Shown here: one piece after another, positions 18,432 through 45,471 of the stretch | Layout of the letters: every line of letters starts with the position of its first letter | How positions within the stretch are numbered: the first letter of the stretch is position 1 | Notes under the pieces: generated by a model | What the model was told of the DNA's origin: nothing | The model's database searches: none | What the model saw: only the letters and a program-made list of their open reading frames with translations | Made by a program: the position numbers and the translations under genes | NCBI GenBank assembly: GCA_963921795.1 | Contig: OY997659.1 | Coordinates: 54,784,811-54,848,810 of the forward strand | DNA length: 64,000 nucleotides | Origin: Nannobrachium achirus | Taxonomy: Eukaryota > Chordata > Actinopteri > Myctophiformes > Myctophidae | Direction of reading: 5' to 3'

Positions 18432-21400
18432 ATGTCAACCCACGAGAAGACTACAGTCGATACACAGCAACCAGCATTGATTTCAGAAGAAAACATTAAC
18501 ACACCGGACAGGGGCGGCATAGCTCAGGGGTAGAGAAAACTGGTATTAGAGCACGAAGGGTATAAATCCCGTAGGGTTCCCAGTTCGAATCCGGGCTCCC
18601 CCTGAGTTAATGTCGAAGGGTCCTTGGGCAAGACTCTGAACCCCTAATTGCCTCCGGTGAGTAGGTTGGTGCCTTGCATGGCTTCCTCCGCCACCGGTGT
18701 ATGAATGTGTGTGTGAATGGGTGAATGTAATGCACAATCTATGTAAAGCGCTTTGGATTAAAAAAGCGCTATATAAATGCACCATTTACCATTTAACACA
18801 CCGGACGTTATTGAAAATGAAGAGGCACCAGTCAACGCACCCAATGCTGTTGAGCATGAAGAGACGACGACTGATGCACATCAGGTCAGACACAGTACCC
18901 GTGTAAAAACCCTAACAGAGAAGGGCCAGAAGATGCACGCAGATAAATTGAAAAAAACAGGAAAAGGCATTTAACAAAGCATACACCACCTGGATGCACA
19001 CTGCAAGAGAGAATCGAAAGACATTGAAATCATTTTGTTCAGCAGAGGACCTTGTTGACATTAAAACCAGCATTCAGAACAACCACGCTGCAATAAGTGA
19101 AAGCTATGAGTCCATTCAGCAAAATTCCACTCCTACACCGGATATCGTAAAGAAAATGGACACCTGCATATTAATCACTTCAGACATTTGCGAAATAGTC
19201 GATAAACACTTGGAAACTCTTGGCAAACCTTTCAACGAGCAGCTTGTAAAAGCCTATGTCAGAATTGCTTTAAATAAAAAGGAGTTTGGCTCAATTTTTG
19301 GACGTACTGACACAGAAACGGTTATCTCTGGAACATCGCATGGTGCAGATAACCGTGCACAGTCCCGTGGAACCCATCCATTGCAGCCACAAACCCCTTC
19401 CATAGCCAGCAATCATTCCAATACTAGCTCCAGCAAGAGAGCTGACGCCGAAGCAGATTTTGCTGCAAAAAGGGAGAAGGAAAAGTACCTACAGGAAATT
19501 CATATCCATCAAACAAAACTGCAAGAGGCAAAAAACAAATTAAAGCAGCTCAAAGCTCAAAGGGATGTCAATTTAGCGGCAGCACGGCTTCAGGCATATA
19601 ACAACTTTGAAGGTGATTTTGAACCCTGCAACAACCCAATTTTCAACAAACCACACTCTGAACCCCCAAATGTTACATCAATTACTCAGCCAAGGGCAAC
19701 AACATCCCAGTCTATGCAAGAATTCAACGATTCACCAACTACTCTGGACACAGAAGGTCTCACCAAATCACTCATAAGTTCACTAAGCATCAACCGCCTC
19801 CCTGCTCCTGAACCAACGACCTTTTCTGGTGAACCATTGGAATTTTTGGACTGGAAAATGTCTTTCATGGCATTGATAGACAGACAACCACTTTCGGCGA
19901 GTGAGAAAATGTTTTATTTGAAGCACTATCTAGATGGAGAAGCCCTCAGGGCTGTGGAAGGGTTCTTTTACCGAAATTCTGATGATGCATACCAGGGAGC
20001 TTGGAGGGTCTTGCAAGAGAGATACGGAAATCCCTTTATTGTACAAAAGGCTTTTCGGGATAAGCTAACGAAATGGCCCAACATTAGCTCAGATGATCCG
20101 TTTGCCCTCAGAAATTTCGCTGACTTCTTGCAGAGCTGTGTGGAGGCCATGCCTTATGTGAAGGGATTGTCCATTCTAAATGATTGTGAAGAGAACCACA
20201 AAATACTCAAGAAACTACCAGAATGGATTGTGCGCGGATGGAGCAGAGTGGTGGTAAAAGAACTTGATGAATCCGGGGAATACCCAAGCCTCTCACGTTT
20301 TACAAAGTACCTTCAAACAGAAGCCAGAATAGTTTGTAACCCTATTGCCTCTCCCTTTTTAGTGAATCATAAGTATACTGATGAGAGAACGACTAAAAGA
20401 ACCAGAGTTTTCCACACCAGTGTCCAGAATAACCACTCAAGCTCCAAGCCTTTGTTCACCTGCCCATTTTGTGCTCAGGAAGCCCATGGTATTGCCACAT
20501 GCCCTAGCTTTGCAAAGAGACCTATTGAAGACAAAAGGGCTTACATTTTTGAAAACAACCACTGTTTTGGATGCCTGAGGAAAGGACATGGTAGCAAAGA
20601 ATGCACAAGGCGACATACCTGTGGCGCGTGTGGTCGACCTCATCCCACCTGCCTGCATGATGACGGAGATAAAAGATCAGTGGGAGAAATGGAGTCGGGG
20701 GGAGAGGTGGCGAAGAAGTCCACCTCCACAGTTGACCCTACAGGTCGGGAGATCTTCACAGCCACAGCGCACACAGTGTTCCGACAAGCTTCTGCCACCA
20801 CAACCATTGTTCCGGTATTTATATCATCTGCAGAGGAGCCACAGAGAGAGGTTCTAACCTATGCCTTACTTGATACGCAAAGTGACTCTACATTTGTCTT
20901 GGAAAATATCCTTGAAGACCTGAAAGTAGACACCCAGACTGTCCATCTGAAGCTTAGTACCATGACCGCTATTAACACAGTTACTGAAAGTAAGACTGTT
21001 GGAGGACTACGTGTCAGAGGCATGAACTCTGATAAGCAGATCCAACTACGCCATGCCTACACTCGTACATTTATTCCAGCAGATACATCCTATATTCCCA
21101 CCAAGAATACTGCTTTGCAATGGCCTCATCTTGAACACCTGGCAGACAAGTTGCCTCCTATACAGGACTGCAAGGTCGGACTACTGATTGGCGCCAACTG
21201 CCCAGCAGCATTGGCACCTCTGGAGGTCATCACCGGAGACGATGATGATCCTTTCGCTCAAAGAACTGTGCTGGGGTGGAGCATAGTTGGCTCTTCAAAG
21301 CCACATATTGACAAACTTGGGAATCAGAGTTGTGTCAATCGAATCACAGTAAGAGAAATGTCAATGAATGTAATAGATGGCTCGCAACAGTCTGAAAGGC

Positions 21401-21870
21401 AGAAGAGTGACTCAGGCACCTCTGAGGAGTTGAATACAAGCAGAAGTTTTGTGAGCAGAGCTGCTCACCTAGTCAAACGTAAATTGGAGCAAAAGGAGAA
21501 AAAGAAGAAACCAGGGAAAGAAGCTACACGTCTGTGCCCTTCCCCTCAATCCCAGGAAGAACCAAAACCGTTCACGAGGAATAAACCCTTGGGTCCAGTT
21601 CAAAATTATCCAAACATCCGAAATCTGACCAATCTTAATCCTGCGATAAAGAAAGACGCAGTAGATGACCAACCTAAGCCAGCCAGGAACAAGTGTGGCA
21701 TGAACAAATCCAAAAAGCGCTGCAATGAAGAAACGCCGGATAAGGCCAACCAAAGGGAGTGTTACTCCTGGAAGAATCCTATTTGCGACCAGAGTGATGC
21801 CAGTCCCCACCACATTGAAAACCATCATATTGACTATGGCAAGAAGAAAATTAAAACCAAGACCTATTGA
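18432..21870 (+). pseudogene. BEL/Pao-type gag-protease gene, interrupted by SINE and frameshift
   Basis: Starts at ATG 18432 (MSTHEKTTVD). After 26 codons a SINE intervenes (18510-18792) and the frame resumes at 18807. Seven A's at 18951-18957, where the related copy near 3246 has six, shift the frame; the long open part then runs 18994-21870 (958 codons). Counting from 18994: coiled-coil-prone segment at about 150-200; DUF1759-like capsid-type domain from about 268 (TFSGEPLEFLDW) to about 430; Cys-rich knuckle at about 523 (CFGCLRKGHGSKEC, then CGACGRPHPTC); DUF1758-type aspartic protease at about 625 (LLDTQSDSTFV, then LLIGANC). From about 827 a Lys-rich tail (KEKKKKPGKE) with no known domain replaces the polymerase. 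Non-functional as a single frame here. Confidence 0.88.
18510..18792 (+). mobile_element. tRNA-derived SINE inserted in gag
   Basis: A 283-bp insertion flanked by a 14-bp duplication, TTAACACACCGGAC, at 18496-18509 and 18793-18806. The head resembles a tRNA with polymerase III boxes: A-box-like TAGCTCAGGGGTAGAG and B-box-like GGTTCCCAGTTCGAATCC. The body has TCCTTGGGCAAGACTCTGAA and the tail AAAGCGCTATATAAATG, common in fish SINE tails. The related gag at 3.1 kb has an empty site. Confidence 0.88.
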
Positions 21871-26790: not shown

Positions 26791-27635
26791 TTAAGTTTAA
26801 ATACTTCATAAACACACATTGATTCAGTTTAAATACTTCATAAACACACATTGCACCTCATGTTTGGATCTAGTTTGCATCCACTCCCAAATGCTTTTTT
26901 GCAGGTTAGATGCCTTGTTCAATTTTGCCTTGCTCTCTTTTAGCAAAGTTTCCAGTTTATCCAGTAGGGCTTTAGGTGTCAATATGCTTTTCGTCTCCGT
27001 TTCGTGTCTCCGTTTCGACAACACTTTGAGTGGTTTCGGACAGTTTTTCAGCCTCTGTGGGCTGTGAACCCTTTACAACAGCCAGCGTGCATTGTGTCAC
27101 CATCAGTAGGCCTATGCCTTCAGTGAAATCAGAACAATGTGCTAAACCCAAACTTAAATCATTTAAACCCTCAAAACCTTCAGAACAGAGTCAGACCCAC
27201 GAACGTGTTGCAACCATAACATTGTAACAGTGAACCATGAACCCTCGAACGGGTTACAACCATAAAACTGAAACTATGAACCACCAATGCATTGGACTTG
27301 TACCCGGTTGTAGATTTGCTGTGGTTGTAGAGGTTGCTGTGTGGAAGGTTGAGTTAACTGTTGCTGTGGTTGTAGAGGTTGCTGCGTGGAAGGTTGAGTT
27401 AACTGTTGCTGTGGTTGTAGAGGTTGCTGCGTGGAAGGTTGAGTTAACTGTTGCTGTGGTTGTAGAGATTGCTGCGTGGAAGGTTGAGTTAACTGTTGCT
27501 GTGGTTGTAGAGATTGCTGCGTGGAAGGTTGAGTTAGCGGTTGCTGTGGTAGTGGAGGTTGCTGCATGGTATGTTGGATCTCTTTGGCTTGAGGATTGAG
27601 TGTGACTGCGGGTTCCTTTAACATGTTTCCTTTCC
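26791..27635 (-). repeat. Gag-derived array unit left of the 8-kb element
   Basis: Contains, on the minus strand, 32-bp repeats, the gag segment LTPKALLDKLETL (about 26960), the gag 5' leader landmark (CAGTGAAATCAGAACAATG at about 27120), 45-bp Gln/Pro repeats (about 27310-27560) and the gag middle segment up to AACATGTTTCC, where the 8-kb element interrupts it. Confidence 0.85.
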
Positions 27636-27949
27636 GCCCTTAGGGAACTTGCGGTCCGATTGGTCGCACCCGATCTCCGGTCGAACCCACGCAGCCAAGG
27701 GCACCTCCCCTTTCCGGGGCCCCTAAAAATAGGGGAGGGGGCCCTAAAAAAACTACATTTTTTTCCCCGCAAGGCGCACCCGGCCCGGCCCCCATCGTAC
27801 CGCCGTCCACCACCAGGCGGAGTGGCGCTCCACACCTCCCGGACTCTTGCCAATCGGACCGTCCTATTGCCGATAGCTTACTGTTACGGTGCCGCTCGGA
27901 CGGGTCCGATCGGCAATTGAAGCCATTAAGCGCTTTGGGTTCTGCCTGT
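27636..27949. other. GC-rich left end of the 8-kb element
   Basis: Contains GGTCCGATTGG (about 27650), GCCAATCGGACCG and CTATTGCCGATAG (about 27852-27880) and GGTCCGATCGGCAATTG (about 27902), plus a GGGGCCCCTAAAAATAGGGG inverted repeat. Copy 2 differs by about 60 bases in a CCCGGGGCC-rich patch near 38866-38900. Confidence 0.6.
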
Positions 27950-28881
27950 CACGCCTCTATCTACCTGTATCACCTCTGTACCGTATCACCTCTCTCTACC
28001 TGTCTCACCTCTCTCTACCTGTCTCAACTCTGCACCTCTCTCTACCTGTCTCACCTCTCTCTACCTGTCTCACCTCTCTCTACCTGTCTCACCTCTCAAC
28101 CTGTCTCACCTCTGTACCGTATCACCTCTCTCTACCTGTCTCACCTCTCTCTACCTGTCTCACCTCTGCACCTCTCTCTACCTGTCTCACCTTTCTCTAC
28201 CTGTCTCACCTCTCTCTACCTGTCTCACCTCTCTTTTCCTGTCTCACCTCTGCACCTCTCTCTACCTGTCTCACCTCTCTCTACCTGTCTCACCTCTCAA
28301 CCTGTCTCACCTCTGTACCGTATCACCTCTCTCTACCTGTCTCACCTCTCAACCTGTCTCACCTCTCTCTACCTGTCTCACCTCTGTACCGTATCACTTC
28401 TCTCTACCTGTCTCACCGCTCAACCTGTCTCACCTCTCTCTACCTGTCTCACCTCTGCACCTATCTCAACCTGTCTCACCTCTCTCTACCTGTCTCACCT
28501 CTGCACCTATCTCTACCTGTCTCACCTCTCTCTACCTGTCTCACCTCTCAACCTGTCTCACCTCTCTCTACCTGTCTCACCTCTCAACCTGTCTCAACTC
28601 TCTCAACCTGTCTCACCTCTCCCTACCTGTCTCACCTCTCTACCTGTCTCAACTCTCTCTACCTGTCTCACCTCTCAACCTGTCTCACCTCTCTCTACCT
28701 GTCTCACCTCTCAACCTGTCTCAACTCTCTCAACCTGTCTCACCTCTCTCTACCTGTCTCACCTCTCTACCTGTCTCACCTCTGTACCGTATCACCTCTC
28801 TCTACCTGTCACCTCTTGAACTGTCTCACCTCTCTACCTGTCTCACCTCTCTCTACCTGTCTCACCTCTGTAATGTATCAG
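27950..28881. repeat. 19-bp CT-rich minisatellite
   Basis: Tandem CACCTCTCTCTACCTGTCT and shortened variants over about 930 bp. Long frames of 300-336 codons are open only because the C/T-rich strand lacks stop triplets; two frames are open at once, so they are not genes. Confidence 0.92.
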
Positions 28882-29257
28882 TGTCGCCCCAACCAGTGAC
28901 ACCCTGCCCTCTGGAGTGCTTGGGTGGGGGGGAGGGAAAGCTAGTGCTAAATAGCACTGAAAGTGATTAGACACTTTGGGGGAGAGGATGCTATTTACCC
29001 CAAGTGTCGCCCCAACCAGTCCCCCCAAGTGCCGCAAGAGCCACCCCCCAATGTCTCCCAACCAGTGACTACCCCTGTGTTACCCCTTACATGCCCCATT
29101 CCAGTGTTCCTCGTTGTTCCAGTGAGCCTATTCATCACTCCCCCAGCCAGTGACCCCCCTGAAGTGCTTGTAGCCCCCCCCCCCCCATGTCCTTGGGGTA
29201 CTTGCCCTCTGCTTGCTCTGCACGCGCACAAGTAGGCAATGGCATTCAAGCCCAATC
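28882..29257. other. C-rich spacer
   Basis: CCAACCAGTGAC and CCCCAGCCAGTGACC-type degenerate repeats and an 11-C run near 29177. About 120 bases between two GTCGCCCCAACCAGT copies (28892-29020) are missing in copy 2, consistent with deletion between short direct repeats. Confidence 0.5.
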
Positions 29258-29359
29258 TTGCCAATTGGACGTTTTAAACGTCCAATTGGCAATATCATTA
29301 CATTATATGTATAATGTAATGATATTGCCAATTGGACGTTTAAAACGTCCAATTGGCAA
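29258..29359. repeat. Perfect 102-bp nested palindrome
   Basis: Two 50-bp arms separated by TG are exact reverse complements by my reading. Each arm itself starts with a 35-bp palindrome (TTGCCAATTGGACGTTT, T, then its complement), followed by ATATCATTACATTATA. So four TTGCCAATTGGAC motifs are packed in two inverted pairs. Confidence 0.92.
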
Positions 29360-29739
29360 TATCATTACATTATTTATGTATTTGCAGTGTCTCAGAAATA
29401 GATTCCAGTTTATATTCCAGTGTATATATATTTTTATTCCACTGTTGCACATTTAAAACATAAAATTAAATAACAAAACAGTGCCCTTTAAGAAAAAACA
29501 AAAAACAGCCCTTTCAGAATGTTCAATTTTTTTTGCAACAATAAAACTTTTGACAAGACAAAAAGGCCTTTCAGAATTACTTTTTAAAACAATAATAAAA
29601 CATTTTATGCCGTGCACACAGACTAAAAGAAAAAAAAAACAGGCTAACATGCCTTCACACTTTTTTTAATAAGTCAGAATAAAGTCAGTTTTGATTTGCG
29701 TTATGTCAAACATTGTTTTCTTTTCTCTTTTCTTTCTAG
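29360..29739. other. AT-rich spacer, no gene
   Basis: A-rich sequence with CCCTTTCAGAATG-like pieces. It ends in a C/T-rich tract and TTTCTAG that forms a good splice acceptor for the next feature. Confidence 0.5.
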
Positions 29740-29795
29740 GTGGCGGTGGCGTAACAGCGGGCGAGCAGGTAGGTTTTAGTTAGGGTCTCAGCCAG
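29740..29795 (+). other. Candidate noncoding exon
   Basis: A strong acceptor (TTTTCTTTCTAG, ending 29739) and two donors, GTAGGT at 29769 and consensus GTAAGT at 29796 after CAG. The segment contains an in-frame-breaking TAA and could be a 5' untranslated exon of the gene at 31129-31687. The same signals are kept in copy 2. Confidence 0.35.
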
Positions 29796-29847
29796 GTAAG
29801 TACTAGCATAGGACTAGCGTAGGACTTTAGCTCAATACTTGCATTAC

Positions 29848-30125
29848 TTGCAATTGGACTGCCAAACGTCCATTTGGCCAATTGCCAATTGGACGTTTTA
29901 AACGTCCAATTGGCAATATAATGTAATGATATTGCCAATTGGACGTTTTACGTCCAATTGGCAATATAATGTAATGATTCCAGGGACACCCTGGGCAGGC
30001 TCTCCCTGTCCCTGCCTCATAATGTTAGCCAGTGCCTAAAGTGGGCACTTAACGTCCAATTGGCAATATAATGTAATGATATTGCCAATTGGATGTTTTA
30101 AACGTCCAATTGGCAATATCATTAC
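29848..30125. repeat. Cluster of TTGCCAATTGGAC palindromes
   Basis: At least nine motif copies in inverted pairs, joined by ATATAATGTAATGATAT, around a non-motif island (about 29979-30050) with GCAGGCTCTCCCTGTCCCTG. Confidence 0.85.
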
Positions 30126-30583
30126 ACCGTCATTACATGGTCCCCAAACTCAGTTAATTGAGTGGCCGCCTCTCGAGGTTCACTCTTGGCTGTCGCACCT
30201 GTCAAATACATAGAAGAAATATAAGAAACCAAGTATTGATCACACGAATGAGATAATGGAGTGGCAAAGACCTTGCCGCTGGCCTCCATCTGGGTGCTTA
30301 CTGGTACAGCAGGACGTTCATCTTCCGCCACCTCCACTTCCCCCGCCAATTCCCTGCCATCAAACGGATCCGGTACTACCGGCACCGTAGGGCTTGGCTG
30401 TAGAGAGAGATTGATGGGGAGGTCCGGTTCGTCCCCGAACTCCATCTCGTCGGAGGTGATCGGGACCTCTGGATCCGGTTCGTCCCCGAACTCCATCTCG
30501 GCTGAGGTAATCGGGACCTCTGGATCCGGTTCGTCCCCGAACTCCATCTCGTCGGAGTTGAACGGGACCTCTGGATCCTCCAC
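30122..30583 (-). CDS. Acidic reading frame with 17-residue repeats, possible exon
   Basis: Open for about 153 codons, with no ATG near its upstream end; the frame continues up to a stop near 30620, and an AG about five bases upstream of 30583 could be a splice acceptor. It starts with three copies of DPEVPITSDEMEFGDEP (51-bp repeats), then PSPTVPVVPDPFDG, an acidic stretch (EVEVAEDERPAV) and a C-terminal segment ending FGDHVMTV, with the stop next to a TTGCCAATTGG palindrome. Copy 2 (41191-41601) has two repeats and stays in frame. A good acceptor-like sequence (TGTATTTGACAG, near 30211) lies inside the frame, so the gene structure is uncertain. No domain recognised. Confidence 0.35.
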   Translation of the reverse strand: MEDPEVPFNSDEMEFGDEPDPEVPITSAEMEFGDEPDPEVPITSDEMEFGDEPDLPINLSLQPSPTVPVVPDPFDGRELAGEVEVAEDERPAVPVSTQMEASGKVFATPLSHSCDQYLVSYISSMYLTGATAKSEPREAATQLTEFGDHVMTV

Positions 30584-30753
30584 GCTCGGCAGTAGAGAGA
30601 TTGGTCTTTGTCAAACCCAAATACATTCTAGGGGCAACTGGACGGTTCAAATGGCAAGAGATATACATTTGCTCAATTGCTTGCCTAATGCTTACTCACC
30701 ATGCTTTTGCGCCTTCAGCACAGGTCCAAAAGGACCTTAAATGGAGTCTATTG

Positions 30754-30972
30754 CCATTTGGATATCATCCAATCGGCAAGATTATGCACTGTGTTCAAAA
30801 GCTCCAATTGGCAATATAATGTAATGATATTGCCAATTGGAAGTTTTTTGGGTTAGGGTTAGGAACTTCCTTTTTGTCCTTTTTCTCGTTTTAAACGTCC
30901 AATAGGCAATATAATGTAATGATATTGCCAATTGGACGTTTTAAACGTCCAATTGGCAATAGAACGGCCAGA
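30754..30972. repeat. Second cluster of TTGCCAATTGGAC palindromes
   Basis: Inverted motif pairs at about 30752-30780, 30801-30842 and 30893-30962, again linked by ATATAATGTAATGATAT. A short GGGTTAGGGTTAGG lies between them near 30850. Confidence 0.8.
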
Positions 30973-31128
30973 GATTTTTTATGTGAAAATAGCAAGTGAA
31001 TCAATCAATCATAATGCCACTGGTCGCAGGTGTGTTAATTAAGGCCACCTGGTTTTGCTCACATCAGACCTCACTTCACAAAGAGCACAGGACAGAGACT
31101 GAGTGATTTCAGAGACAAAGAATACAAC

Positions 31129-31447
31129 ATGCCAAAGGTAATAACAGTCATAATAAAAGTCATAATAGTAAATTATGTTGGCTAAAAATGTTTCTTGCTA
31201 GTTTAAAGAAGACAATGTTATAAATGTTTCAATACCATTCCATGCATTTATTATTCTTTTTTCTTTTTCAGGACAACCTCAAGAAGGGAAAGGCCACAGG
31301 GAGCCTTTGGCCTGACTGCCAAAACTGCAGGAGATGCATGGCAGAGATGGTCACGCTCAACAATGCCCTCATCAGGGCCGAGAGGGAGCGTAACGGTTAC
31401 CGTGCGGCCCTCACTGAATTACTGGAAAAGTGGGCAGAGGTATGTAT

Positions 31448-31482
<35 letters not shown>

Positions 31483-31687
31483 TACTATCTGACTGCCTCG
31501 TCACCAGACTGTATTTGTTTAATCTTTCCAGGTGGAAAAAAAGGACGAGGAAGGAGGCCAGGCGGAGACAGGAGACAAAGAAGAGGAGAAGACTGAAAGA
31601 GGAGAGGAAGAAAGCTTCCATACAGCATGTGGGGACGAAGCAGATGAAAAGGATGGGGGAGAGGGGGCAGGGGCCAAGATTGTTTAA
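31129..31687 (+). CDS. Three-exon gene for a 110-residue protein with CxxCxxC and an acidic tail, copy 1
   Basis: Exons 31129-31137 (MPK), 31272-31439 (56 codons) and 31532-31687 (51 codons and TAA). Intron 1 (134 bp) runs from GTAATA to TTTTTCAG; intron 2 (92 bp) from GTATGT to CTTTCCAG and holds a CTGT microsatellite. All joins are phase 0. The protein has a basic start (LKKGKATG), CQNCRRC at residues 19-25 that could bind zinc, a probable amphipathic helix (ALIRAERERNGYRAALTELL), and a tail of mostly Glu/Asp/Gly/Lys. AATAAA follows at 31694-31699. Introns are fish-like in size. Copy 2 keeps every splice site and frame. I do not recognise the family; expression is not shown. The single unspliced ORF through this region misreads both introns. 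Confidence 0.55.
31449..31481 (+). repeat. CTGT microsatellite in intron 2
   Basis: About eight CTGT units between donor and acceptor of the small gene's second intron; also in copy 2 at about 42467-42499. Confidence 0.9.
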
Positions 31688-31693
31688 AAATGT

Positions 31694-31699
31694 AATAAA
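31694..31699 (+). terminator. Polyadenylation signal of the small gene
   Basis: AATAAA seven bases after the stop codon. Copy 2 equivalent at 42712-42717. Confidence 0.5.
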
Positions 31700-31889
31700 A
31701 AATGTGGCAACTATGCACAACATGAGTTTGACTTCTGTACTTGTCCTTGAACAATGACTGCCTTTACAATTATAAATGTATAATCATAATCTCAGATACC
31801 TTTCCAGGTGAACTAGCACTTTTCAAAATCTACATAGAATCAGGGGCCACAAAACGACGAGTCGATAGTGACAAAGTAAAAAGCATTTC

Positions 31890-32830
31890 AGTTCCAATAC
31901 ATGTTTATTGCTAATCGGACGGTCCAAATGGCAATAGAATCCATTTTAATACATAACAAAGCATCTTCATGGCTTATTTTATAAGTTCTGTAGGTGCTAC
32001 AGACACCCCACTTTATTTGGGTGAAAAGTAAAGGTTTTAGTGAGCCGAAAAAGGCCAGGTGTTCATTTGGCAATATTTGCTTTTTTCATTTTGAAACTTC
32101 AAACGGCTCCCGCTCCAAAACCGTGATAGATAACGATTAGCTCCGGATACATTTTATTATTTGATAGGCCTAGATAACGCACATGCAGTATGGTAGCTTT
32201 TGGTGGTCCAGGGGAGAAATAGGAGCAAAAGAGTATCGACCAATGTCCGTTTGGCAAGAGAAAAGATTTTCTACCCCAAAAAAAGCATCTTCATGGCTTA
32301 TATTATAAGTTCTGTGGGTGCTACAGACACCCCAATTATGCCACACAGTCATCTTTCACCGCTATATCATAATATGCTGAGTTTTAGCCAGAGGGGCCTT
32401 TATTTGGGTGAAAAGTAAAGGTTATAGTGAGCCAAAAAAGGCCAGGCGTTCATTTGGCAATATTAGCTTTTTTCATTTTGAAACTTCAAACGGCTCCCGC
32501 TCCAAAACCGTGATAGATAACGATTAGCTCCGGATATATTTTATTATTTGATAGGCCTAGATAACGCACATGCAGTATGGTAGCTTTTGGTGGTCCAGGG
32601 GAGAAATAGGAGCAAAAGAATATCGACCAATGTCCGTTTGGCAAGAGAAAATAATACCCCCCCCAAAATGAAAGTGTTTTTTGTCCGCCGATCGGCCATA
32701 CGACCACCCCAGGCCCCCAGATTCTCAGCAGCGATAGTCCTCGTGCCCAACAATCATAATCTAGAAGCTAGTCTTTGTACATATTGTAGAAAAAAAGTGC
32801 TTCATTTTGGAGCCTCCGAAAGCTCTTAGA
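31890..32830. repeat. 387-bp tandem repeats, group 1
   Basis: Two full units about 387 bp apart (marker GGTAGCTTTTGGTGGTCCAG at about 32189 and 32576) preceded by a partial unit near 31910. Each contains CATTTGGCAATATT and GTCCGTTTGGCAAGAG. Short frames in both strands recur with the unit and are not genes. Confidence 0.88.
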
Positions 32831-32897
32831 GTCTACGCCTCTGAGACCTTTCGGAGCAGAAGTTGACCTTTTGAGACAAACTTTTTTTCTACAGGTT

Positions 32898-33171
32898 CTG
32901 AGGTTACGATACTGACATATGTTAATCGGCAGTCGATGCAGAGGCCCTCTGCGGTGGTTTCACGTCTCTAGATGCTCTGGGAGGCCCGCAAACGCAGCGT
33001 CCATTTGGCAATAGAATGAAAGAGATTTTCCCTGAACTCAAAATTCCATTCATTCTATTGCCAAATGGATGCCGCATTTGCGAGCCTCCCAAAGCAGCTA
33101 CAGACGTGAAACCACCACAGGGATGCTCTGCATCGAGTGCGGTTTGACATATATCAGAATCATAACCTCAG
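32898..33171. repeat. 274-bp imperfect palindrome
   Basis: The arms pair from CTGAGGTTACGAT on the left to ATCATAACCTCAG on the right, meeting near 33035, with scattered mismatches. Near the centre the arms carry CATTTGGCAATAGAATG and its complement CATTCTATTGCCAAATG. Confidence 0.85.
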
Positions 33172-33379
33172 CAGCTTTTGAAGATGACCGTTTGCACGTT
33201 TCAATATGTAGGGGCCACATTATGACACTTAATGTCGAGGGGCGAACGACACCACACTCGAGGGGTCGCAGGGATCGTGTGGTGTGAGTTTCGTGTCGAT
33301 AGTGGCCACGAGCCCAACGTTCTGGCCATAGATATTTGGCTGAGGCAATAACATGAGTCTATCGCGCAATCCAATAGGC

Positions 33380-34780
33380 CAATACATGTTTATTGCTAAT
33401 CGGACGGTCCAAATGGCAATAGAATCCATTTTAATACTCTGTTACATAACAAAGCATCTTCATGGCTTATTTTATAAGTTCAGAAGGTGCTACAGACACC
33501 CCAATTAAGCCACACAGTCATCTTTCACCGCTCTATCATAATATGCTGAGTTTGAGCCCAAGGGGCCTTTATTTGGGTGAAAAGTAAAGGTTTTAGTGAG
33601 CCGAAAAAGGCCAGGTGTTCATTTGGCAATATTTGCTTTTTTCATTTTGAAACTTCAAACGGCTCCCGCTCCAAAACCGTGATAGATAACGATTAGCTCC
33701 GGATACATTTTATTATTTGATAGGCCTAGATAACGCACATGCAGTATGGTAGCTTTTGGTGGTCCAGGGGAGAAATAGGAGCAAAAGAGTATCGACCAAT
33801 GTCCGTTTGGCAAGAGAAAAGAATTTCTACCCCAAAAAAAGCATCTTCATGGCTTATATTATAAGTTCTGTGGGTGATACAGACACCCCAATTATGCCAC
33901 ACAGTCATCTTTCACCGCTATATCATAATATGCTGAGTTTTAGCCAGAGGGGCCTTTATTTGGGTGAAAAGTAAAGGTTTTAGTGAGCCGAAAAAGGCCA
34001 GGTGTTCATTTGGCAATATTTGCTTTTTTCATTTTGAAACTTCAAACGGCTCCCGCTCCAAAACCGTGATAGATAACGATTAGCTCCGGATACATTTTAT
34101 TATTTGATAGGCCTAGATAACGCACATGCAGTATGGTAGCTTTTGGTGGTCCAGGGGAGAAATAGGAGCAAAAGAGTATCGACCAATGTCCGTTTGGCAA
34201 GAGAAAATAATTTCTACCCCAAAAAAAGCATCTTCATGGCTTATATTATAAGTTCTGTGGGTGATACAGACACCCCAATTATGCCACACAGTCATCTTTC
34301 ACCGCTATATCATAATATGCTGAGTTTTAGCCAGAGGGGCCTTTATTTGGGTGAAAAGTAAAGGTTATAGTGAGCCAAAAAAGGCCAGGCGTTCATTTGG
34401 CAATATTAGCTTTTTTCATTTTGAAACTTCAAACGGCTCCCGCTCCAAAACCGTGATAGATAACGATTAGCTCCGGATATATTTTATTATTTGATAGGCC
34501 TAGATAACGCACATGCAGTATGGTAGCTTTTGGTGGTCCAGGGGAGAAATAGGAGCAAAAGAGTATGGACCAATGTCCGTTTGGCAAGAGAAAATAATAC
34601 CCCCCCCAAAATCAAAGCGTTTTTTGTCCGCCAATCGGCGATACGACCACCCCAGGCCCCCAGATTCTCAGCAGCGATAGTCCTCGTGCCCAACAATCAT
34701 AATCTAGAAGCTGGTCTTTGTACATATTGTAGAAAAAAAGTGCTTCACTTCGGAGACTCCGAAAGCTCTTAGAGTCTACG
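33380..34780. repeat. 387-bp tandem repeats, group 2
   Basis: One partial unit (from about 33385, TTGCTAATCGGACGG) and three units with the GGTAGCTTTTGGTGGTCCAG marker at about 33747, 34134 and 34521. Copy 2 has one unit fewer. Confidence 0.88.
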
Positions 34781-34840
34781 TCTCTGAGAACTTTTGGAGC
34801 AGAAGTTGACCTTTTGAGACAAACCTTTTTTCTACAGGTT

Positions 34841-35110
34841 CTGAGGTTGCGAAACTGACATATATTGATCGGCAGTCGATACAGAGGCCCTCTGTGGTGG
34901 TTTCAAGTCTCTAGCTGCTCTGGGAGGCCCGCAAACGCGGCGCCCAGTTGGCAATAGAATGAAATAGATTTTGACTGAACTCAAAATGCCATTCATTCTA
35001 TTGCCAAATGGATGCCGCGTTTGCGGGGCCTCCCAGAGCAGCTAGAGACGTGAAACCACCACAGGGATGCTCTGCATCGAGTGCGGTCCGACATATATCA
35101 GAATCATAAC
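34841..35110. repeat. 270-bp imperfect palindrome, second copy
   Basis: Same structure as 32898-33171, with its centre near 34980 between CAGTTGGCAATAGAATG and CATTCTATTGCCAAATG. Follows repeat group 2 just as the other follows group 1, so a block of repeats plus palindrome was itself duplicated. Confidence 0.83.
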
Positions 35111-35638
35111 TTGGGCTCTCTGTCACCCAGAACCAGGCTGAGTGCACCCAGAACCAGGCTGAGTGCCTGGAGCTCTCTGCCCAGGCAGAGCACTTCTTCT
35201 CCTGGGGGGGGGGGGGCTTCTCTGCAGCCCCTGGAAGTCACCCAGAACTAGGCTGAAGAAGGCCAGTACATCTAATCGGACGTGATCACATGACCTCAGC
35301 CCCATGCATATTGTCATTTGGACTGGACGTGACCAATTGGCAAGAGACCAATGTTCAGACGGCACCTTTAACATGTATGTCCCCTGGTGGCGGACTAATC
35401 TAGTGCCAATTGTACTGTTTTTCTTGCCGATAGGACACGTCCAATTGATAGGATTTTCCCAATTGGACGTGTCCAAAAGGAAGGATCCTGTCAATTGTAC
35501 GGGCCGATCGGCAATATGCTATGGACAATTGGACGAAATCTTTTCCCTAAGCTTCTACGCAACTTTGTGCGGTCCGGTTGGCACTAAAATGTCCAATTGG
35601 AACTACGCTCGCGGTTACCAATTGGACGATAGGGAATA
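35111..35638. other. Right end of the 8-kb element
   Basis: Starts with an ACCCAGAACCAGGCTGAGTG repeat and a G run, then about a dozen motif variants close together (GACCAATTGGCAAG, CCGATCGGCAATATG, ACCAATTGGACG) up to the end at AGGGAATA. No gene. Confidence 0.55.
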
Positions 35639-37857
35639 TCCTGTTGTAGGATTCATTTATCATTTTTGCATTGAACCATAAATCATGTTTTGCCTTCTCC
35701 TCCAGGGGCAATACTGGCAACAGAGCCTTCTGAGCATCTCTTGCTTCCTTGATTAAGTTTAAATACTTCATAAACACATATTGATTCAGTTTAAATACTT
35801 CATAAACACACATTAAGTTTAAATACTTCATAAACACACATTAAGTGTGAATACTTCTTAAAACTTACATTGATTAAGTTTAAATACTCCATAAACACAC
35901 ATTAAGTTTAAATACTTCATAAACACACATTGCACCTCATGTTGGGATCCAGTTTGCATCCACTCCCAAATGCTTTAGGTGTCAATATGCTTTTTTTTTT
36001 TCATGACTGGTGTCTCCGTTTCGACAACACTTTGAGTGTTTCGGACTACTTTTCAGCCTCTGGGGGCTGTGAACCCTTTACAACAGCCAGTGTGCATTGC
36101 GACACCATCAGTAGGCCTATGCGTTTCAGCCCCAGTGGCGGGTAGTTCAACCATTACGCATATTTCATTTTCATCCTGAACACCTTTATCAGACACCATA
36201 ATAAATAGCAATGCAAAATACCAACTGTTTAAATATAAAACAGTGCCTTCAGTGAAATCAGAACAATGTGCAAAACCCAAACTTAAATCACAGTTAAAAA
36301 CTCAAAACCTTCAGAACAGAGTCAGACCCACAAACGGGTTAAAACCATGGATTGTAGTGGTTACAGTGATGGTAGTTGCTGTAGTAATGGTTGTGGTGGT
36401 TGAGGGAGTGCTGCGTGCAAGGTTGAGTTAAATGTTGCTGTGGTTGTAGAGATTGCTGTGTGGAAGGTTGAGTTAACTGTTGCTGTGGTTGTAGAGGTTG
36501 CTGCGTGGAAGATTGAGTTAGCAGTTGCTGTGGTTGTAGAGGTTGCTGCGTGGAAGGTTGAGTTAGCAGTTGCTGTGGTTGTAGAGATTGCTGCGTGGAA
36601 GGTTGAGTTAACTTTTGCTGTGGTTGTAGAGGTTGCTGCGTGGAAGGTTGAGATAATTGTTGCTGTGGTTGTAGAGATTGCTGTGTGGAAGGTTGAGTTA
36701 ACTGTTGCTGTGGTTGTAGAGGTTGCTGTGTAAAAAGGTTGAGTTAGCAGTTGCTGTGGTTGTAACACACATTGATTCAGTTTAAATACTTCATAAACAC
36801 ACATTGATTAAGTTGAAATACTTCATAAACACCATGATTAAGTTTAAATACTTCATAAACAACAAACATTGATTCAGTTTAAATACTTCATAAACACACA
36901 TTGATTAAGTTTAAATATGTCGTAAACACACATTGCACCTCATGTTTGGATCCAGTTTGCATCCACTCCCAAATGCTTTTTTGCAGGTTAGATGCCTTGT
37001 TCAATTTTGCCTTTCTCTCTTTTTGCAAAATTTCCAGTTTATCCAGTAGGGCTTTAGGTGTCAATATGCTTTTCGTCTCCGTTTCGTGTCTCCGTTTCGA
37101 CAGCACTTTGAGTGGTTTCGGACAGTTTTGCAGCCTCTGGGGGCTGTGAACCCTTTACAACAGCCAGCGTGCATTGTGTCACCATCAGTAGGCCTATGCC
37201 TTCAGTGAAATCAGAACAATGTGCTAAACCCAAACTTAAATCAGTTAAAACCTCAAAACCTTCAGAACAGAGTCAGACCCTCGAACGGGTTGCAACCATA
37301 ACATTGTAACAGTGAACCATGAACCCTCGAACGGGTTACAACCATAAAACTGAAACCATGAACCACCAATGCATTGGACTTGTACCCGGTTGTAGATTTG
37401 CTGTGGTTGTAGAGATTGCTGCGTGGAAGGTCGAGTTAACTGTTGCTGTGGTTGTAAAGGTTGCTGCGTGGAAGGTTGAGTTAACTGTTGCTGTGGTTGT
37501 ATAGATTGCTGTGTGGAAGGTTGAGTTAACTGTTGCTGTGGTTGTAGAGATTGCTGCGTGGAAGGTTGAGTTAACTGTTGCTGTGGTTGTAGAGATTGCT
37601 GCGTGGAAGGTTGAGTTAACTGTTGCTGTGGTTGTAGAGACTGCTGTGTGGAAGGTCGAGTTAGCGGTTGCTGTGGTAGTGGAGGTTGCTGCATGGTAGG
37701 TTGGAACTCTTTGGCTTGAGGATTGAGTGCGACTGTGGGTTCCTTTAACAAGTTTCCTTTCCCGTTGTAGGATTCATTTATCATTTTTGCATTGAACCAT
37801 AAATCATGTTTTGCCTTCTCCTTCGGGGGCAATACTGGCAACAGAGCCTTCTGAGCA
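35639..37857 (-). repeat. Gag-derived array units between the two 8-kb copies
   Basis: Starts with the gag middle segment (CTGTTGTAGGATTC) that was split by the 8-kb insertion, then 32-bp repeats (about 35745-35930), gag N-terminal sequence (about 35940-36200), a leader landmark (about 36246), 45-bp Gln/Pro repeats (about 36415-36760), 32-bp repeats, gag N-terminal sequence (36960-37140), leader (37200), Gln/Pro repeats (37395-37690) and the middle segment (KEARDAQKALLP) to about 37870. Confidence 0.85.
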
Positions 37858-38718: not shown

Positions 38719-39060
38719 GCCCTTAGGGAACTTGCGGTCCGATTGGTCGCACCCGATCTCCGGTCGAACCCACGCAGCCAAGGGCACCTCCCCTTTCCGG
38801 GGCCCCTAAAAATAGGGGAGGGGGCCCTAAAAAAACTAAAAAATTTTCCCCGCAAGGCGCACCCGGCCCCGGGGCCCGGGGCCGGGTTTTTTTGAAAATC
38901 CCATCGTGCCGCCGTCCACCACCAGGCGGAGTGGCGCTCCACACCTCCCGGACTCTTGCCAATCGGACCGTCCTATTGCCGATAGCTTACTGTTACGGTG
39001 CCGCTCGGACGGGTCCGATCGGCAATTGAAGCCATTAAGCGCTTTGGGTTCTGCCTGTCA

Positions 39061-40073
39061 CGCCTCTATCTACCTGTATCACCTCTGTACCGTATCACCT
39101 CTCTCTACCTGTCTCACCTCTCTCTACCTGTCTCAACTCTGCACCTCTCTCTACCTGTCTCACCTCTCTCTACCTGTCTCACCTCTCTCTACCTGTCTCA
39201 CCTCTCTGTTCCTGTCTCACCTATGCACCTCTCTCTACCTGTCTCACCTCTCTCTACCTGTCTCACCTCTCAACCTGTCTCACCTCTGTACCGTATCACC
39301 TCTCTCTACCTGTCTCACCTCTCTCTACCTGTCTCACCTCTGCACCTCTCTCTACCTGTCTCACCTTTCTCTACCTGTCTCACCTCTCTCTACCTGTCTC
39401 ACCTCTCTTTTCCTGTCTCACCTCTGCACCTCTCTCTACCTGTCTCACCTCTCTCTACCTGTCTCACCTCTCAACCTGTCTCACCTCTGTACCGTATCAC
39501 CTCTCTCTACCTGTCTCACCTCTCAACCTGTCTCACCTCTCTCTACCTGTCTCACCTCTGTACTGTATCACTTCTCTCTACCTGTCTCACCGCTCAACCT
39601 GTCTCACCTCTCTCTACCTGTCTCACCTCTGCACCTATCTCAACCTGTCTCACCTCTCTCTACCTGTCTCACCTCTGCACCTATCTCTACCTGTCTCACC
39701 TCTCAACCTGTCTCACCTCTCTCTACCTGTCTCACCTCTCAACCTGTCTCACCTCTCTCTACCTGTCTCAACTCTCTCAACCTGTCTCACCTCTCCCTAC
39801 CTGTCTCACCTCTCTACCTGTCTCAACTCTCTCTACCTGTCTCACCTCTCAACCTGTCTCACCTCTCTCTACCTGTCTCACCTCTCAACCTGTCTCAACT
39901 CTCTCAACCTGTCTCACCTCTCTCTACCTGTCTCACCTCTCTACCTGTCTCAACTCTCTCTACCTGTCTCACCTCTGTACCGTATCACCTCTCTCTACCT
40001 GTCACCTCTTGAACTGTCTCACCTCTCTACCTGTCTCACCTCTCTCTACCTGTCTCACCTCTGTAATGTATCA
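39061..40073. repeat. 19-bp CT-rich minisatellite, copy 2
   Basis: Same unit as 27950-28881, with a different number and order of variants; open frames of 368 and 509 codons are compositional. Confidence 0.92.
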
Positions 40074-40340
40074 GTGTCGCCCCAACCAGTCCCCCCAAGT
40101 GCCGCAAGAGCCACCCCCCAATGTCTCCCAACCAGTGACTACCCCTGTGTTACCCCTTACATGCCCCATTCCAGTGTTCCTCGTTGTTCCAGTGAGCCTA
40201 TTCATCACTCCCCCAGCCAGTGACCCCCCTGAAGTGCTTGTAGCCCCCCCCCCCCCCCCCCCCCCCCCCATGTCCTTGGGGTACTTGCCCTCTGCTTGCT
40301 CTGCACGCACACAAGTAGGCAATGGCATTCAAGCCCAATC

Positions 40341-40442
40341 TTGCCAATTGGACGTTTTAAACGTCCAATTGGCAATATCATTACATTATATGTATAATGT
40401 AATGATATTGCCAATTGGACGTTTAAAACGTCCAATTGGCAA
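40341..40442. repeat. Perfect 102-bp nested palindrome, copy 2
   Basis: Identical to 29258-29359 by eye, exactly 11083 bp away. Confidence 0.92.
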
Positions 40443-40808
40443 TATCATTACATTATTTATGTATTTGCAGTGTCTCAGAAATAGATTCCAGTGTATATAT
40501 ATTTTTATTCCACTGTTGCACATTTAAAACATAAAATTAAATAACAAAACAGTGCCCTTTAAGAAAAAACAAAAAACAGCCCTTTCAGAATGTTCAATTT
40601 TTTTTGCAACAATAAAACTTTTGACAAGACAAAAAGGCCTTTCAGAATTACTTTTTAAAACAATAATAAAACATTTTATGCCGTGCACACAGGCTAAAAG
40701 AAAAAAAAAACAGGCTAACATGCCTTCACACTTTTTAATAAGTCAGAATAAAGTCAGTTTTGATTTGCGTTATGTCAAACATTGTTTTCTTTTCTCTTTT
40801 CTTTCTAG

Positions 40809-40864
40809 GTGGCGGTGGCGTAACAGCGGGCGAGCAGGTAGGTTTTAGTTAGGGTCTCAGCCAG
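40809..40864 (+). other. Candidate noncoding exon, copy 2
   Basis: Acceptor CTTTCTAG and donor GTAAGT retained as in copy 1. Confidence 0.35.
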
Positions 40865-40916
40865 GTAAGTACTAGCATAGGACTAGCGTAGGACTTTAGC
40901 TCAATACTTGCATTAC

Positions 40917-41195
40917 TTGCAATTGGACTGCCAAACGTCCATTTGGCCAATTGCCAATTGGACGTTTTAAACGTCCAATTGGCAATATAATGTAATGATA
41001 TTGCCAATTGGACGTTTTACGTCCAATTGGCAATATAATGTAATGATTCCAGGGACACCCTGGGCAGGCTCTCCCTGTCCCTGCCTCATAATGTTAGCCA
41101 GTGCCTAAAGTGGGCACTTAACGTCCAATTGGCAATATAATGTAATGATATTGCCAATTGGATGTTTTAAACGTCCAATTGGCAATATCATTACA
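40917..41195. repeat. Cluster of TTGCCAATTGGAC palindromes, copy 2
   Basis: Counterpart of 29848-30125, same arrangement. A further cluster counterpart of 30754-30972 lies at about 41772-41990. Confidence 0.83.
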
Positions 41196-41601
41196 CCGTC
41201 ATTACATGGTCCCCAAACTCAGTTAATTGAGTGGCCGCCTCTCGAGGTTCACTCTTGGCTGTCGCACCTGTCAAATACATAGAAGAAATATAAGAAACCA
41301 AGTATTGATCACACGAATGAGATAATGGAGTGGCAAAGACCTTGCCGCTGGCCTCCATCTGGGTGCTTACTGGTACAGCAGGACGTTCATCTTCCGCCAC
41401 CTCCACTTCCCCCGCCAATTCTCTGCCATCAAACGGATCCGGTACTACCGGCACCGTAGGGCTTGGCTGTAGAGAGAGATTGATGGGGAGGTCCGGTTCG
41501 TCCCCGAACTCCATCTCGTCGGAGGTGATCGGGACCTCTGGATCCGGTTCGTCCCCGAACTCCATCTCGTCGGAGTTGAACGGGACCTCTGGATCCTCCA
41601 C
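41191..41601 (-). CDS. Acidic reading frame with two 17-residue repeats, copy 2
   Basis: 136 codons; identical to the 30122-30583 frame except that one 51-bp repeat (DPEVPITSAEMEFGDEP) is missing. The frame is preserved, with no stop introduced. Start and splicing are unresolved as in copy 1. Confidence 0.35.
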   Translation of the reverse strand: MEDPEVPFNSDEMEFGDEPDPEVPITSDEMEFGDEPDLPINLSLQPSPTVPVVPDPFDGRELAGEVEVAEDERPAVPVSTQMEASGKVFATPLSHSCDQYLVSYISSMYLTGATAKSEPREAATQLTEFGDHVMTV

Positions 41602-42146
41602 GCTCGGCAGTAGAGAGATTGGTCTTTGTCAAACCCAAATACATTCTAGGGGCAACTGGACGGTTCAAATGGCAAGAGATATACATTTGCTCAATTGCTT
41701 GCCTAATGCTTACTCACCATGCTTTTGCTCCTTCAGCACAGGTCCAAAAGGACCTTAAATGGAGTCTATTGCCATTTGGATATCATCCAATCGGCAAGAT
41801 TATGCACTGTGTTCAAAAGCTCCAATTGGCAATATAATGTAATGATATTGCCAATTGGAAGTTTTTTGGGTTAGGGTTAGGAACTTCCTTTTTGTCCTTT
41901 TTCTCGTTTTAAACGTCCAATAGGCAATATAATGTAATGATATTGCCAATTGGACGTTTTAAACGTCCAATTGGCAATAGAACGGCCAGAGATTTTTTAT
42001 GTGAAAATAGCAAGTGAATCAATCAATCATAATGCCACTGGTCGCAGGTGTGTTAATTAAGGCCACCTGGTTTTGCTCACATCAGACCTCACTTCACAAA
42101 GTGCACAGGACAGAGACTGAGTGATTTCAGAGACAAAGAATACAAC

Positions 42147-42465
42147 ATGCCAAAGGTAATAACAGTCATAATAAAAGTCATAATAGTAAATTATGTTGGC
42201 AAAAAATGTTTCTTGCTAGTTTAAAGAAGACAATGTTATAAATGTTTCAATACCATTCCATGCATTTATTATTCTTTTTTCTTTTTCAGTACAACCTCAA
42301 GATGGGAAAGGCCACAGGGAGCCTTTGGCCTGACTGCCAAAACTGCAGGAGATGCATGGCAGAGATGGTCACGCTCAACAATGCCCTCATCAGGGCCGAG
42401 AGGGAGCGTAACGGTTACCGTGCGGCCCTCACTGAATTACTGGAAAAGTGGGCAGAGGTATGTAT

Positions 42466-42500
<35 letters not shown>

Positions 42501-42705
42501 TACTATCTGACTGCCTCGTCACCAGACTGTATTTGTTTAATCTTTCCAGGTGGAAAAAAAGGACGAGGAAGGAGGCCAGGCGGAGACAGGAGACAAAGAA
42601 GAGGAGAAGACTGAAAGAGGAGAGGAAGAAAGCTTCCATACAGCATGTGGGGACGAAGCAGATGAAAAGGATGGGGGAGAGGGGGCAGGGGCCAAGATTG
42701 TTTAA
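42147..42705 (+). CDS. Three-exon gene for a CxxCxxC protein, copy 2
   Basis: Exons 42147-42155, 42290-42457 and 42550-42705, each exactly 11018 bp from copy 1, same splice signals. Two changes were seen in the coding sequence: the first codon of exon 2 is TAC instead of GAC (Asp to Tyr) and its fifth is ATG instead of AAG (Lys to Met). CQNCRRC and the acidic tail are unchanged, and no stop or frameshift is present. Confidence 0.55.
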
Positions 42706-42907
42706 AAATGTAATAAAAAATGTGGCAACTATGCACAACATGAGTTTGACTTCTGTACTTGTCCTTGAACAATGACTGCCTTTACAATTATAAATGTATA
42801 ATCATAATCTCAGATACCTTTCCAGGTGAACTAGCACTTTTCAAAATCTACATAGAATCAGGGGCCACAAAACGACGAGTCGATAGTGACAAAGTAAAAA
42901 GCATTTC

Positions 42908-43850
42908 AGTTCCAATACATGTTTATTGCTAATCGGACGGTCCAAATGGCAATAGAATCCATTTTAATACATAACAAAGCATCTTCATGGCTTATTTCAT
43001 AAGTTCTGTAGGTGCTACAGACACCCCACTTTATTTGGGTGAAAAGTAAAGGTTTTAGTGAGCCGAAAAAGGCCAGGTGTTCATTTGGCAATATTTGCTT
43101 TTTTCATTTTGAAACTTCAAACGGCTCCCGCTCCAAAACCGTGATAGATAACGATTAGCTCCGGATACATTTTATTATTTGATAGGCCTAGATAACGCAC
43201 ATGCAGTATGGTAGCTTTTGGTGGTCCAGGGGAGAAATAGGAGCAAAAGAGTATCGACCAATGTCCGTTTGGCAAGAGAAAAGATTTTCTACCCCAAAAA
43301 AAGCATCTTCATGGCTTATATTATAAGTTCTGTGGGTGCTACAGACACCCCAATTATGCCACACAGTCATCTTTCACCGCTATATCATAATATGCTGAGT
43401 TTTAGCCAGAGGGGCCTTTATTTGGGTGAAAAGTAAAGGTTATAGTGAGCCAAAAAAGGCCAGGCGTTCATTTGGCAATATTAGCTTTTTTCATTTTGAA
43501 ACTTCAAACGGCTCCCGCTCCAAAACCGTGATAGATAACGATTAGCTCCGGATATATTTTATTATTTGATAGGCCTAGATAACGCACATGCAGTATGGTA
43601 GCTTTTGGTGGTCCAGGGGAGAAATAGGAGCAAAAGAATATCGACCAATGTCCGTTTGGCAAGAGAAAATAATACCCCCCCCCAAAATGAAAGTGTTTTT
43701 TGTCCGCCGATCGGCCATACAACCACCCCAGGCCCCCAGATTCTCAGCAGCGATAGTCCTCGTGCCCAACAATCATAATCTAGAAGCTAGTCTTTGTACA
43801 TATTGTAGAAAAAAAGTGCTTCATTTTGGAGCCTCCGAAAGCTCTTAGAG
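42908..43850. repeat. 387-bp tandem repeats, group 1, copy 2
   Basis: Units with the marker at about 43207 and 43594, as in copy 1. Confidence 0.88.
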
Positions 43851-43916
43851 TCTACGCCTCTGAGACCTTTCGGAGCAGAAGTTGACCTTTTGAGACAAAC
43901 TTTTTTTCTACAGGTT

Positions 43917-45412: not shown

Positions 45413-45471
45413 CTCTGAGAACTTTTGGAGCAGAAGTTGACCTTTTGAGACAAACCTTTTTTCTACAGGTT

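Follow-up and report, generated by a model that had tools for sequence, protein, structure and literature searches.

A nonautonomous copy of a putative tyrosine recombinase transposon with a body-wide array of 13-bp sites in the fish Nannobrachium achirus

In the 1.66-Gb genome of the fish Nannobrachium achirus (assembly GCA_963921795.1), we analyzed a window of 64,000 nucleotides on contig OY997659.1 (C22:54784811-54848810) and found that an 8-kb block within it is a mobile element, which occurs with the same ends at other loci. The block carries a small spliced gene and many copies of a 13-bp site, and larger members of the family have a longer spliced gene whose predicted product shows hallmarks of a tyrosine recombinase (YR). 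The block itself is an internally deleted, nonautonomous family member, in which the recombinase gene is cut to one exon. The features are as follows, in window positions and with the strand where one is assigned.

27634 to 27635: left CC flanking repeat, settled as CC by the empty sites of the C15 and C5 copies
27636 to 35639, + strand: mobile element copy 1, 8,004 bp, with ends common to the C15, C6, C5, and C1 copies and an empty site in the flanking array
27847 to 27916: left-end site cluster (TTGCCAATCGGAC, GTCCGATCGGCAA), from the site count
27941 to 28869: CTCTCTACCTGTCTCACC minisatellite within the element, with similar sequence in the C15, C6, and C1 copies
29258 to 29359: two inverted site pairs (13-9-13), from the pattern count
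29868 to 30116: site array with spacers of 9 and 15 bp (one pair 7 bp), from the pattern count
30122 to 30583, - strand: recombinase gene remnant exon, by tblastn with the exons of the C6 copy (E 5e-50), the only exon found in the window copy
30802 to 30959: site array upstream of the small gene, from the pattern count
31129 to 31137, + strand: small gene exon 1, coding part, with GT-AG boundaries by eye
31272 to 31439, + strand: small gene exon 2, boundaries by eye, with protein matches at C15, C1, C5, C8, C551, and partly C6
31532 to 31687, + strand: small gene exon 3, boundaries by eye, about 110 amino acids in total, with protein matches at other loci
31894 to 34973: 387-bp repeat zone, with site variants at steps of about 171 and 190 bp and inverted stretches
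35311 to 35627: right-end site cluster, its last site 12 bp from the junction CC
35640 to 35641: right CC flanking repeat, settled in the same way as the left one
About 38719 to 46300, + strand: copy 2, a duplicate of the insertion plus flanks, with identical flanks and junctions

Since its flanks are the same as those of copy 1, copy 2 is a copy of the same insertion and not a second insertion. A genome search located the right end at C22 (twice), C15, C6, C5, and C1 and the left end at C22 (twice), C15, C6, C5, and C1, the last with two occurrences that share a flank and lie 18.8 kb from each other. Rearrangement has affected the C1 locus, where left and right ends could be matched up by position alone. 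With duplicates counted once, five insertions have both ends, and their flanks are different. By coordinates, the copies measure 8.0 kb (window), 7.6 kb (duplicate), 8.8 kb (C15), 11.0 kb (C6), 15.9 kb (C5), and 18.7 kb (C1). Further partial copies are found on C8 and C551, in pieces with runs of N; relatives were read as pieces of 0.4 to 1.6 kb, among which the C8 left end is not included.

Empty sites were read for three of the five insertions (window, C15, and C5). In the array flanking the window copy, one of five units reads CCTTTCC-TGTTG and four read CCTTTCC-CGTTG, which is compatible with a repeat of either TCC or CC. For C15, four full-length paralogous matches were listed, and the three that were read all have GAA-CC-AGTGATATAG, while the filled site has GAA-CC-CGCCCTTAGGG on the left and GGGAATAT-CC-AGTGATATAG on the right. 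For C5, three units read CCATTC-CC-A(T/A)TGATTC, and the filled site has CCATTC-CC-CGCCCTTAGGG on the left and CCATTA-CC-ATTGATTC on the right. Because the C15 and C5 empty sites place the T of the right-hand TCC within the element, the repeated letters are CC. A preliminary description of this DNA had seen a clean interruption of a known sequence, which the empty site in the flanking array bears out, and a small spliced gene, whose protein indeed has matches at every family locus, although partial at C6. It had also read TCC on both sides as a 3-bp target site duplication, which the C15 and C5 empty sites reject. The other copies with the same ends on which it had staked its reading exist at C15, C6, C5, and C1.

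The element ends in CGCCCTTAGG on one side and in GGGAATAT or TTCCATT on the other, the last bases of the right end being GGGAAT in the window, C15, and C6 copies and TTCCATT in the C1 and C5 copies; the left end of the window copy is shorter by one C. There is no CACTA end, and an ungapped comparison of the outermost 30 bases at each end of the window, C6, and C5 copies, with offsets of up to 2, revealed no terminal inverted repeat. In the C5 copy (C5:73385260), the right end finishes in letters (TTTCCATT) identical to the left flank of the target itself, which may mean that short homology directs insertion or that the element acquired this end at a target site.

The C6 copy sits in a fragment of a 28S rRNA gene, with a match to the large-subunit (LSU) model up to position 1886 on one side (E 1e-14) and a 25-base match resuming at position 1925 on the other (E 0.4). 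Both of its junctions read CCCGCCC (7 bp), while the other copies have CC alone. Its right junction looks as though the opening letters of the left end had been appended to the right end, the arrangement expected of a circle joint, but this single case is only suggestive. Specific targeting of ribosomal DNA was rejected, with the window, C15, and C5 flanks being other sequence; on scaffold C551, 18S and 5.8S lie in the same 10-kb piece as the element, a piece that contains 5,000 N. Near a paralogue of the C15 target, a candidate further insertion (C15:62521735) was likewise rejected, as it has different ends and is another element. Of the six copies on large contigs (C22, C15, C6, C1, C5, and C8), five are no more than 3 Mb away from a contig end, for which a uniform model gives P 2.5e-5; the 3-Mb limit was chosen after the data were seen, and contig ends need not be telomeres. 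Elsewhere in the window are a satellite of 329-bp units (11683 to 17043, 16 copies) and a 958-amino-acid open frame (18994 to 21870) with a gag/protease-like look (BEL/Pao by eye).

The 13-bp site is concentrated in the element. Exact TTGCCAATTGGAC occurs 24 times in the window, 12 times each in the block and its duplicate and nowhere else, and with up to two mismatches there are 49 occurrences in the block. When the four central bases are left free, TTGCCNNNNGGAC has 24 exact occurrences in the 8-kb block; the 45,385 bp lying outside both it and its duplicate contain none, and Markov shuffling of the block (20 replicates) gives 0.1 on average. Allowing one mismatch raises these numbers to 48 in the block, 6 outside, and 1.75 on average after shuffling. 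None of these 48 sites is inside the minisatellite or the small-gene exons. The letters TTGCC and GGAC are held constant, while the four central bases vary (AATT, GATC, AATC, ATTT, AAAC, and others). Many sites are arranged as inverted pairs, separated by 9 bp (> <) or 15 bp (< >), making up a 50-bp unit, and other site variants lie 171 or 190 bp apart in one orientation within the 387-bp repeats. The outermost sites are 18 bp from the left CC and 12 bp from the right CC. The preliminary description had estimated about fifty motif copies, often as inverted pairs and absent from the flanks, and had suggested counting them inside and outside the block; done here as a pattern count, this agrees with it. 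What it had noticed as inverted just inside both ends is the site itself and not a terminal inverted repeat.

The inverted site pairs are tied to the element family. The pattern TTGCCAATTGGAC, 8 to 10 bases, GTCCAATTGGCAA was found at 58 places genome-wide and at none for the reversed control. All of the 50 pairs listed are at family loci on C1, C5, C6, C8, C15, or C22, and their spacer is always 9 bases, although 8 to 10 were permitted. The spacers in these 13-9-13 pairs have several sequences (GTTTTAAAC, GTGCCAAAC, and others).

The protein of the small gene (about 110 amino acids) has an acidic tail and a CxxCxxC motif, and its best match in PHROGs (E 0.0012) is to a family of unknown function and gives no usable identification. 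In the larger copies (11 to 19 kb), a longer spliced gene, read from C6 and C8, lies on the opposite strand. Its upstream exon encodes two short C2H2-like fingers recognized by eye (CxxxxC-x9-HxxxxH and CxxC-x9-HxxxxH), and in C8 the five later exons make up one open stretch of 500 codons, with one GC donor. By order and strand, the fingers and the YR domain are predicted to belong to one protein. Recombinase exons are present in the C6, C5, C8, C551, and C1 copies. The window and C15 copies have no recombinase domain now, with the one exon kept in the window found in a tblastn search that left out pieces L033 and L035. The recombinase coding sequence is conserved and under purifying selection: the C8 and C6 copies have a nonsynonymous divergence (dN) of 0.062 and a synonymous divergence (dS) of 0.455 (dN/dS 0.14, 495 codons), and dN/dS is 0.19 for C8 versus C1 (456 codons) and 0.49 for C8 versus C5 and versus C551, with seven changes each.

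The enzyme class was approached in several ways. By eye, the motifs FGHRN, ENKT, LRSS, MLHS, and YYAY can be recognized in the recombinase stretch, and their order is that of the tyrosine recombinase boxes. A search of the genome with the recombinase gave 105 matches at E values of up to 1, with identities down to 26 percent and many of them broken at the same exon borders. Among the relatives with the exon in hand (L069 to L074) and the copies, the R is kept in 5 rows, the K and the second R in 9, and the H and Y in 7. We compared family profiles with a profile of 12 YRs, namely, P1 Cre, D6 Dre, and six others chosen by Cre similarity, plus lambda and three fish YRs. Nine family rows gave a weak match that scored 30.4 (E 0.0012 for one comparison), against 24.0 for the best of 100 column shuffles and 11.3 for the reversed profile; three close copies scored 22.8 (E 0.013 for one comparison; best of 60 shuffles, 19.8). 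In the profile alignment, the K, the second R, and the H land near their YR counterparts. A plain hidden Markov model (HMM) of nine phage recombinases, one of them then in the wrong frame, matched the first boxes only (E 0.004, one target). Together, these comparisons support the prediction of a tyrosine recombinase. More distant recombinase relatives (33 percent identity, E 2e-4) recur about every 10 kb at C8:59299621-59319451 and C508:1141929-1161364.

A variant of the site accompanies a diverged recombinase. The relative in L072 (1.6 kb), about 50 percent identical, has its own recurring word, mostly in introns: CATGCCAAATTGAC has six sites with up to three mismatches in L072, compared to a shuffled mean of 0.23 and a maximum of 2 in 200. 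As this word was picked from L072 itself, the genome-wide count is the fair test, and CATGCCAAATNGAC gave 243 matches genome-wide versus 7 in the control. Among the first 100 matches listed, clusters of 4 to 6 kb with sites on both strands account for 15 (C5:66.35 Mb), 17 (C9:69.42 Mb), and 11 (C15:51.92 Mb); 24 are at C5:74.88-74.97 Mb, 18 of them in a tandem array; two are beside recombinase relatives on C8; and two are beside a C12 fragment that itself matches the recombinase at E 0.58 only. A 601-base piece of the C9 cluster contains CATGCCAAATGGAC singly and as an inverted pair. No recombinase match falls in the three clusters among the 105 found in the genome, and they may be nonautonomous. 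These clusters (C9:69422037-69428244, which ends 1.4 kb from the contig end, C5:66346846-66352584, and C15:51922459-51926643) are probably sister elements. The array (C5:74881943-74916763), mostly of 1,905-bp period with one sister site per unit, is possibly a satellite derived from a sister element. The similar layout with a changed site, which is also found inside the diverged recombinase gene, favors a protein of the element as the reader of the site.

Unexpectedly, the recombinase gene shows far greater divergence between copies in its exons than in its introns. Between C6 and C8, exons c to g differ at 190 of 1503 bases, compared with 23 of 712 for the four introns that separate them (Fisher p 4e-14; L038 7242-9573 against L034 and L029), and 33 of the 121 four-fold sites in exons c to f differ. 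The changes are mostly at third positions and not of a single mutation type. C1 and C8 show the same trend (exons c to f, 49/993; introns, 15/829; p 3e-4), in a count that omits exon g, whose alignment is upset by an insertion. The contrast is also seen for small-gene exon 2 in some copy pairs, with the small-gene borders in this comparison off by one or two bases from the coordinates listed above. Other noncoding windows are mostly, not always, more alike than the exons, and noncoding DNA is not uniformly conserved, as several pairs differ by roughly a quarter over the stretch upstream of this gene. Gene conversion is an unlikely cause, as it should ignore exon borders. Candidate explanations are selection on the spliced RNA, exchange with spliced copies, and noncoding constraint.

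On balance, and with moderate confidence, we favor the view that the block is a nonautonomous copy of a Crypton-like YR transposon whose body is an array of putative binding sites for its own protein, with the scattered 13-bp site probably serving as that protein's landing pad. In the scheme that we infer for the circle intermediate, the binding partner, and the role of the array, the recombinase would excise the element, probably as a circle with joined ends, and recombination of the circle with a CC dinucleotide at a new place would produce an insertion bordered by CC at either side and lacking terminal inverted repeats. Cryptons have likewise been proposed to move as circles without terminal inverted repeats, according to excerpts of a published description (PMC3212892). 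The 13-bp sites (TGCC-NNNN-GGAC) would be bound by an element protein, through the fingers, the YR domain, or both, and by dimers on inverted pairs with the 9-bp spacer, and the outermost sites would position the recombinase at the element ends. The array would thereby gather the recombinase on the element and mark its ends, and it may modulate the two divergent genes on either side of the densest arrays. Recombinase collection, control of the two divergent genes, and mere repeat growth are all candidate reasons for sites across the whole body.

Several observations weigh against this interpretation. The YR domain has no significant match in Pfam, NCBIfam, PHROGs, or PDB, and the library searches as a whole were of no use for classification; the best subthreshold Pfam matches had E values of 0.014 (nine stretches), 0.02 (recombinase), and 0.0025 (one open reading frame [ORF] of the C5 copy, under its cutoff), and the recombinase reached 0.43 in PDB and 0.07 in PHROGs, with none in NCBIfam. 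An HMM of fish retroelement YRs gave no match either, and the histidine of the HxxR box is missing, with G, N, or M at that position in most aligned rows. The gene model, made from sequence only, uses a GC donor, and its 5' join is out of phase in the reading made. Binding of the protein to the sites is putative. The constant pair spacing could have arisen from the spread of a single 50-bp unit, and a 9-bp spacer falls outside the range for YR sites, given in excerpts of the published description as inverted repeats of 11 to 13 bp that are 6 to 8 bp apart (PMC3212892). A single tandem array supplies many of the CATGCCAAATNGAC matches, and among the first 100 listed, about 30 are isolated, dispersed sites. 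The flanking repeats are only 2 bp long, with 7 bp (CCCGCCC) in the C6 copy alone.

An unlikely alternative is that the sites serve a host protein, such as NFI or CCAAT factors, or are a functionless repeat that multiplied within the element. Most sites hold TTGGCA, which is an NFI half-site, the sister variant likewise retains it, the commonest center contains CCAAT, and many sites lie within the 50-bp and 387-bp repeats. However, the sites occur in differing contexts (at both ends, between genes, and in repeats), their centers change while TTGCC and GGAC remain, and a diverged recombinase relative has a matching but changed site, where a fixed host protein predicts otherwise. The NFI reading in the preliminary description is weakened: TTGGCA is indeed in most sites, but conservation is as strong on the GTCC side as on the GGCAA side, GTCCGATCGGCAA-type sites do not have TTGGC, and the center varies between variants and in the sister family. 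We consider it quite improbable that a DDE transposase supplied from elsewhere moves the element, with the YR-like gene and the sites as passengers and CC as a 2-bp target site duplication. Some DDE families do make 2-bp duplications, and the window and C15 copies once moved yet have no recombinase domain now. This explanation is at odds with the purifying selection on the recombinase gene, with the lack of a terminal inverted repeat when the 30-base ends of three copies are compared at small offsets, and with the absence of a Pfam DDE match in 10 ORFs of the C5 copy and nine other stretches, which are a part of the element's ORFs. The preliminary description had thought of a large DNA transposon with transposase-binding sites. 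The mobile insertion stands, but the larger copies' gene with tyrosine recombinase hallmarks means that its transposase-site reading needs another enzyme class. Finally, we give almost no credence to the idea that the block is what remains of a large DNA virus. Such a virus could be suggested by the YR-like enzyme and by spliced genes whose family is unknown, and integrases are mentioned in the title of a paper about endogenous crustacean nimaviruses (PMC10871703), but no structural or replication domain was found in the ORFs scanned, the ends are constant across copies of 8 to 19 kb, and a scan of 2.9 million viral contigs, which finds close relatives only, returned no relative of the YR domain.

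Tyrosine recombinase DNA transposons of vertebrates are little described in the literature found, in which no title or abstract describes this element. Family-specific sites and diverged recombinases side by side in one genome make enzyme/site specificity directly comparable, which is relevant to how such elements find their ends and to recombinase engineering. A bolder proposal, possible but doubtful, is that the family represents a separate vertebrate lineage of YR transposons outside the described Crypton groups, with a family-specific, body-wide array of 13-bp sites that changes together with the recombinase and with silent exon sites rewritten far faster than introns, as if host silencing targeted the mature mRNA and not the DNA. 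If true in more copies, the exon-intron contrast would provide a natural setting in which to test small-RNA silencing as a driver of silent changes in transposon genes.

Among known systems, EnSpm/CACTA elements have many short subterminal transposase sites and a 2- to 3-bp duplication. The element resembles them in its many short sites and short flanking duplication and differs in its enzyme and in its ends (CGCCCTTAGG and GGGAATAT or TTCCATT), without the CACTA/G terminal inverted repeat or the DDE transposase. DIRS and Ngaro elements share a YR enzyme, and the genome contains 51 Phage_integrase matches, those examined resembling retroelement YRs by eye, but the YR of the element is not alike at the sequence level, and no reverse transcriptase was found in the ORFs scanned, which did not cover every ORF. 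Starships of fungi, as far as partial descriptions go, are also large YR-driven DNA elements, a likeness by description and not by YR sequence; here, the host is a vertebrate, the element is much smaller, and no cargo set was seen. Closest are the Cryptons (CryptonA and CryptonV), a likeness that rests on published descriptions, in the excerpts used, and not on compared Crypton YR sequences: a YR as the sole recognizable recombinase, no terminal inverted repeat (as in the window, C6, and C5 copies), and nonautonomous derivatives (PMC3212892; for CryptonV, PMC8869645). Of the Crypton R-H-R-Y tetrad, the R, R, and Y are kept, with an extra K and H, and the HxxR histidine is missing; with no Pfam match for the YR, there is also none to the Crypton-derived DUF3504 model, if that is included in the Pfam set. 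The terminal direct repeats of 4 to 6 bp of the fungal groups, reported absent from animal groups, are not seen, the element having CC only, or CCCGCCC at C6. It differs further from Cryptons in its multiexon YR gene with an upstream finger exon, its second spliced gene, and its body of 8 to 19 kb with a site array. Overall, the most likely identity of this mobile element is a Crypton-like YR transposon, unusual in carrying an array of sites over its whole body.

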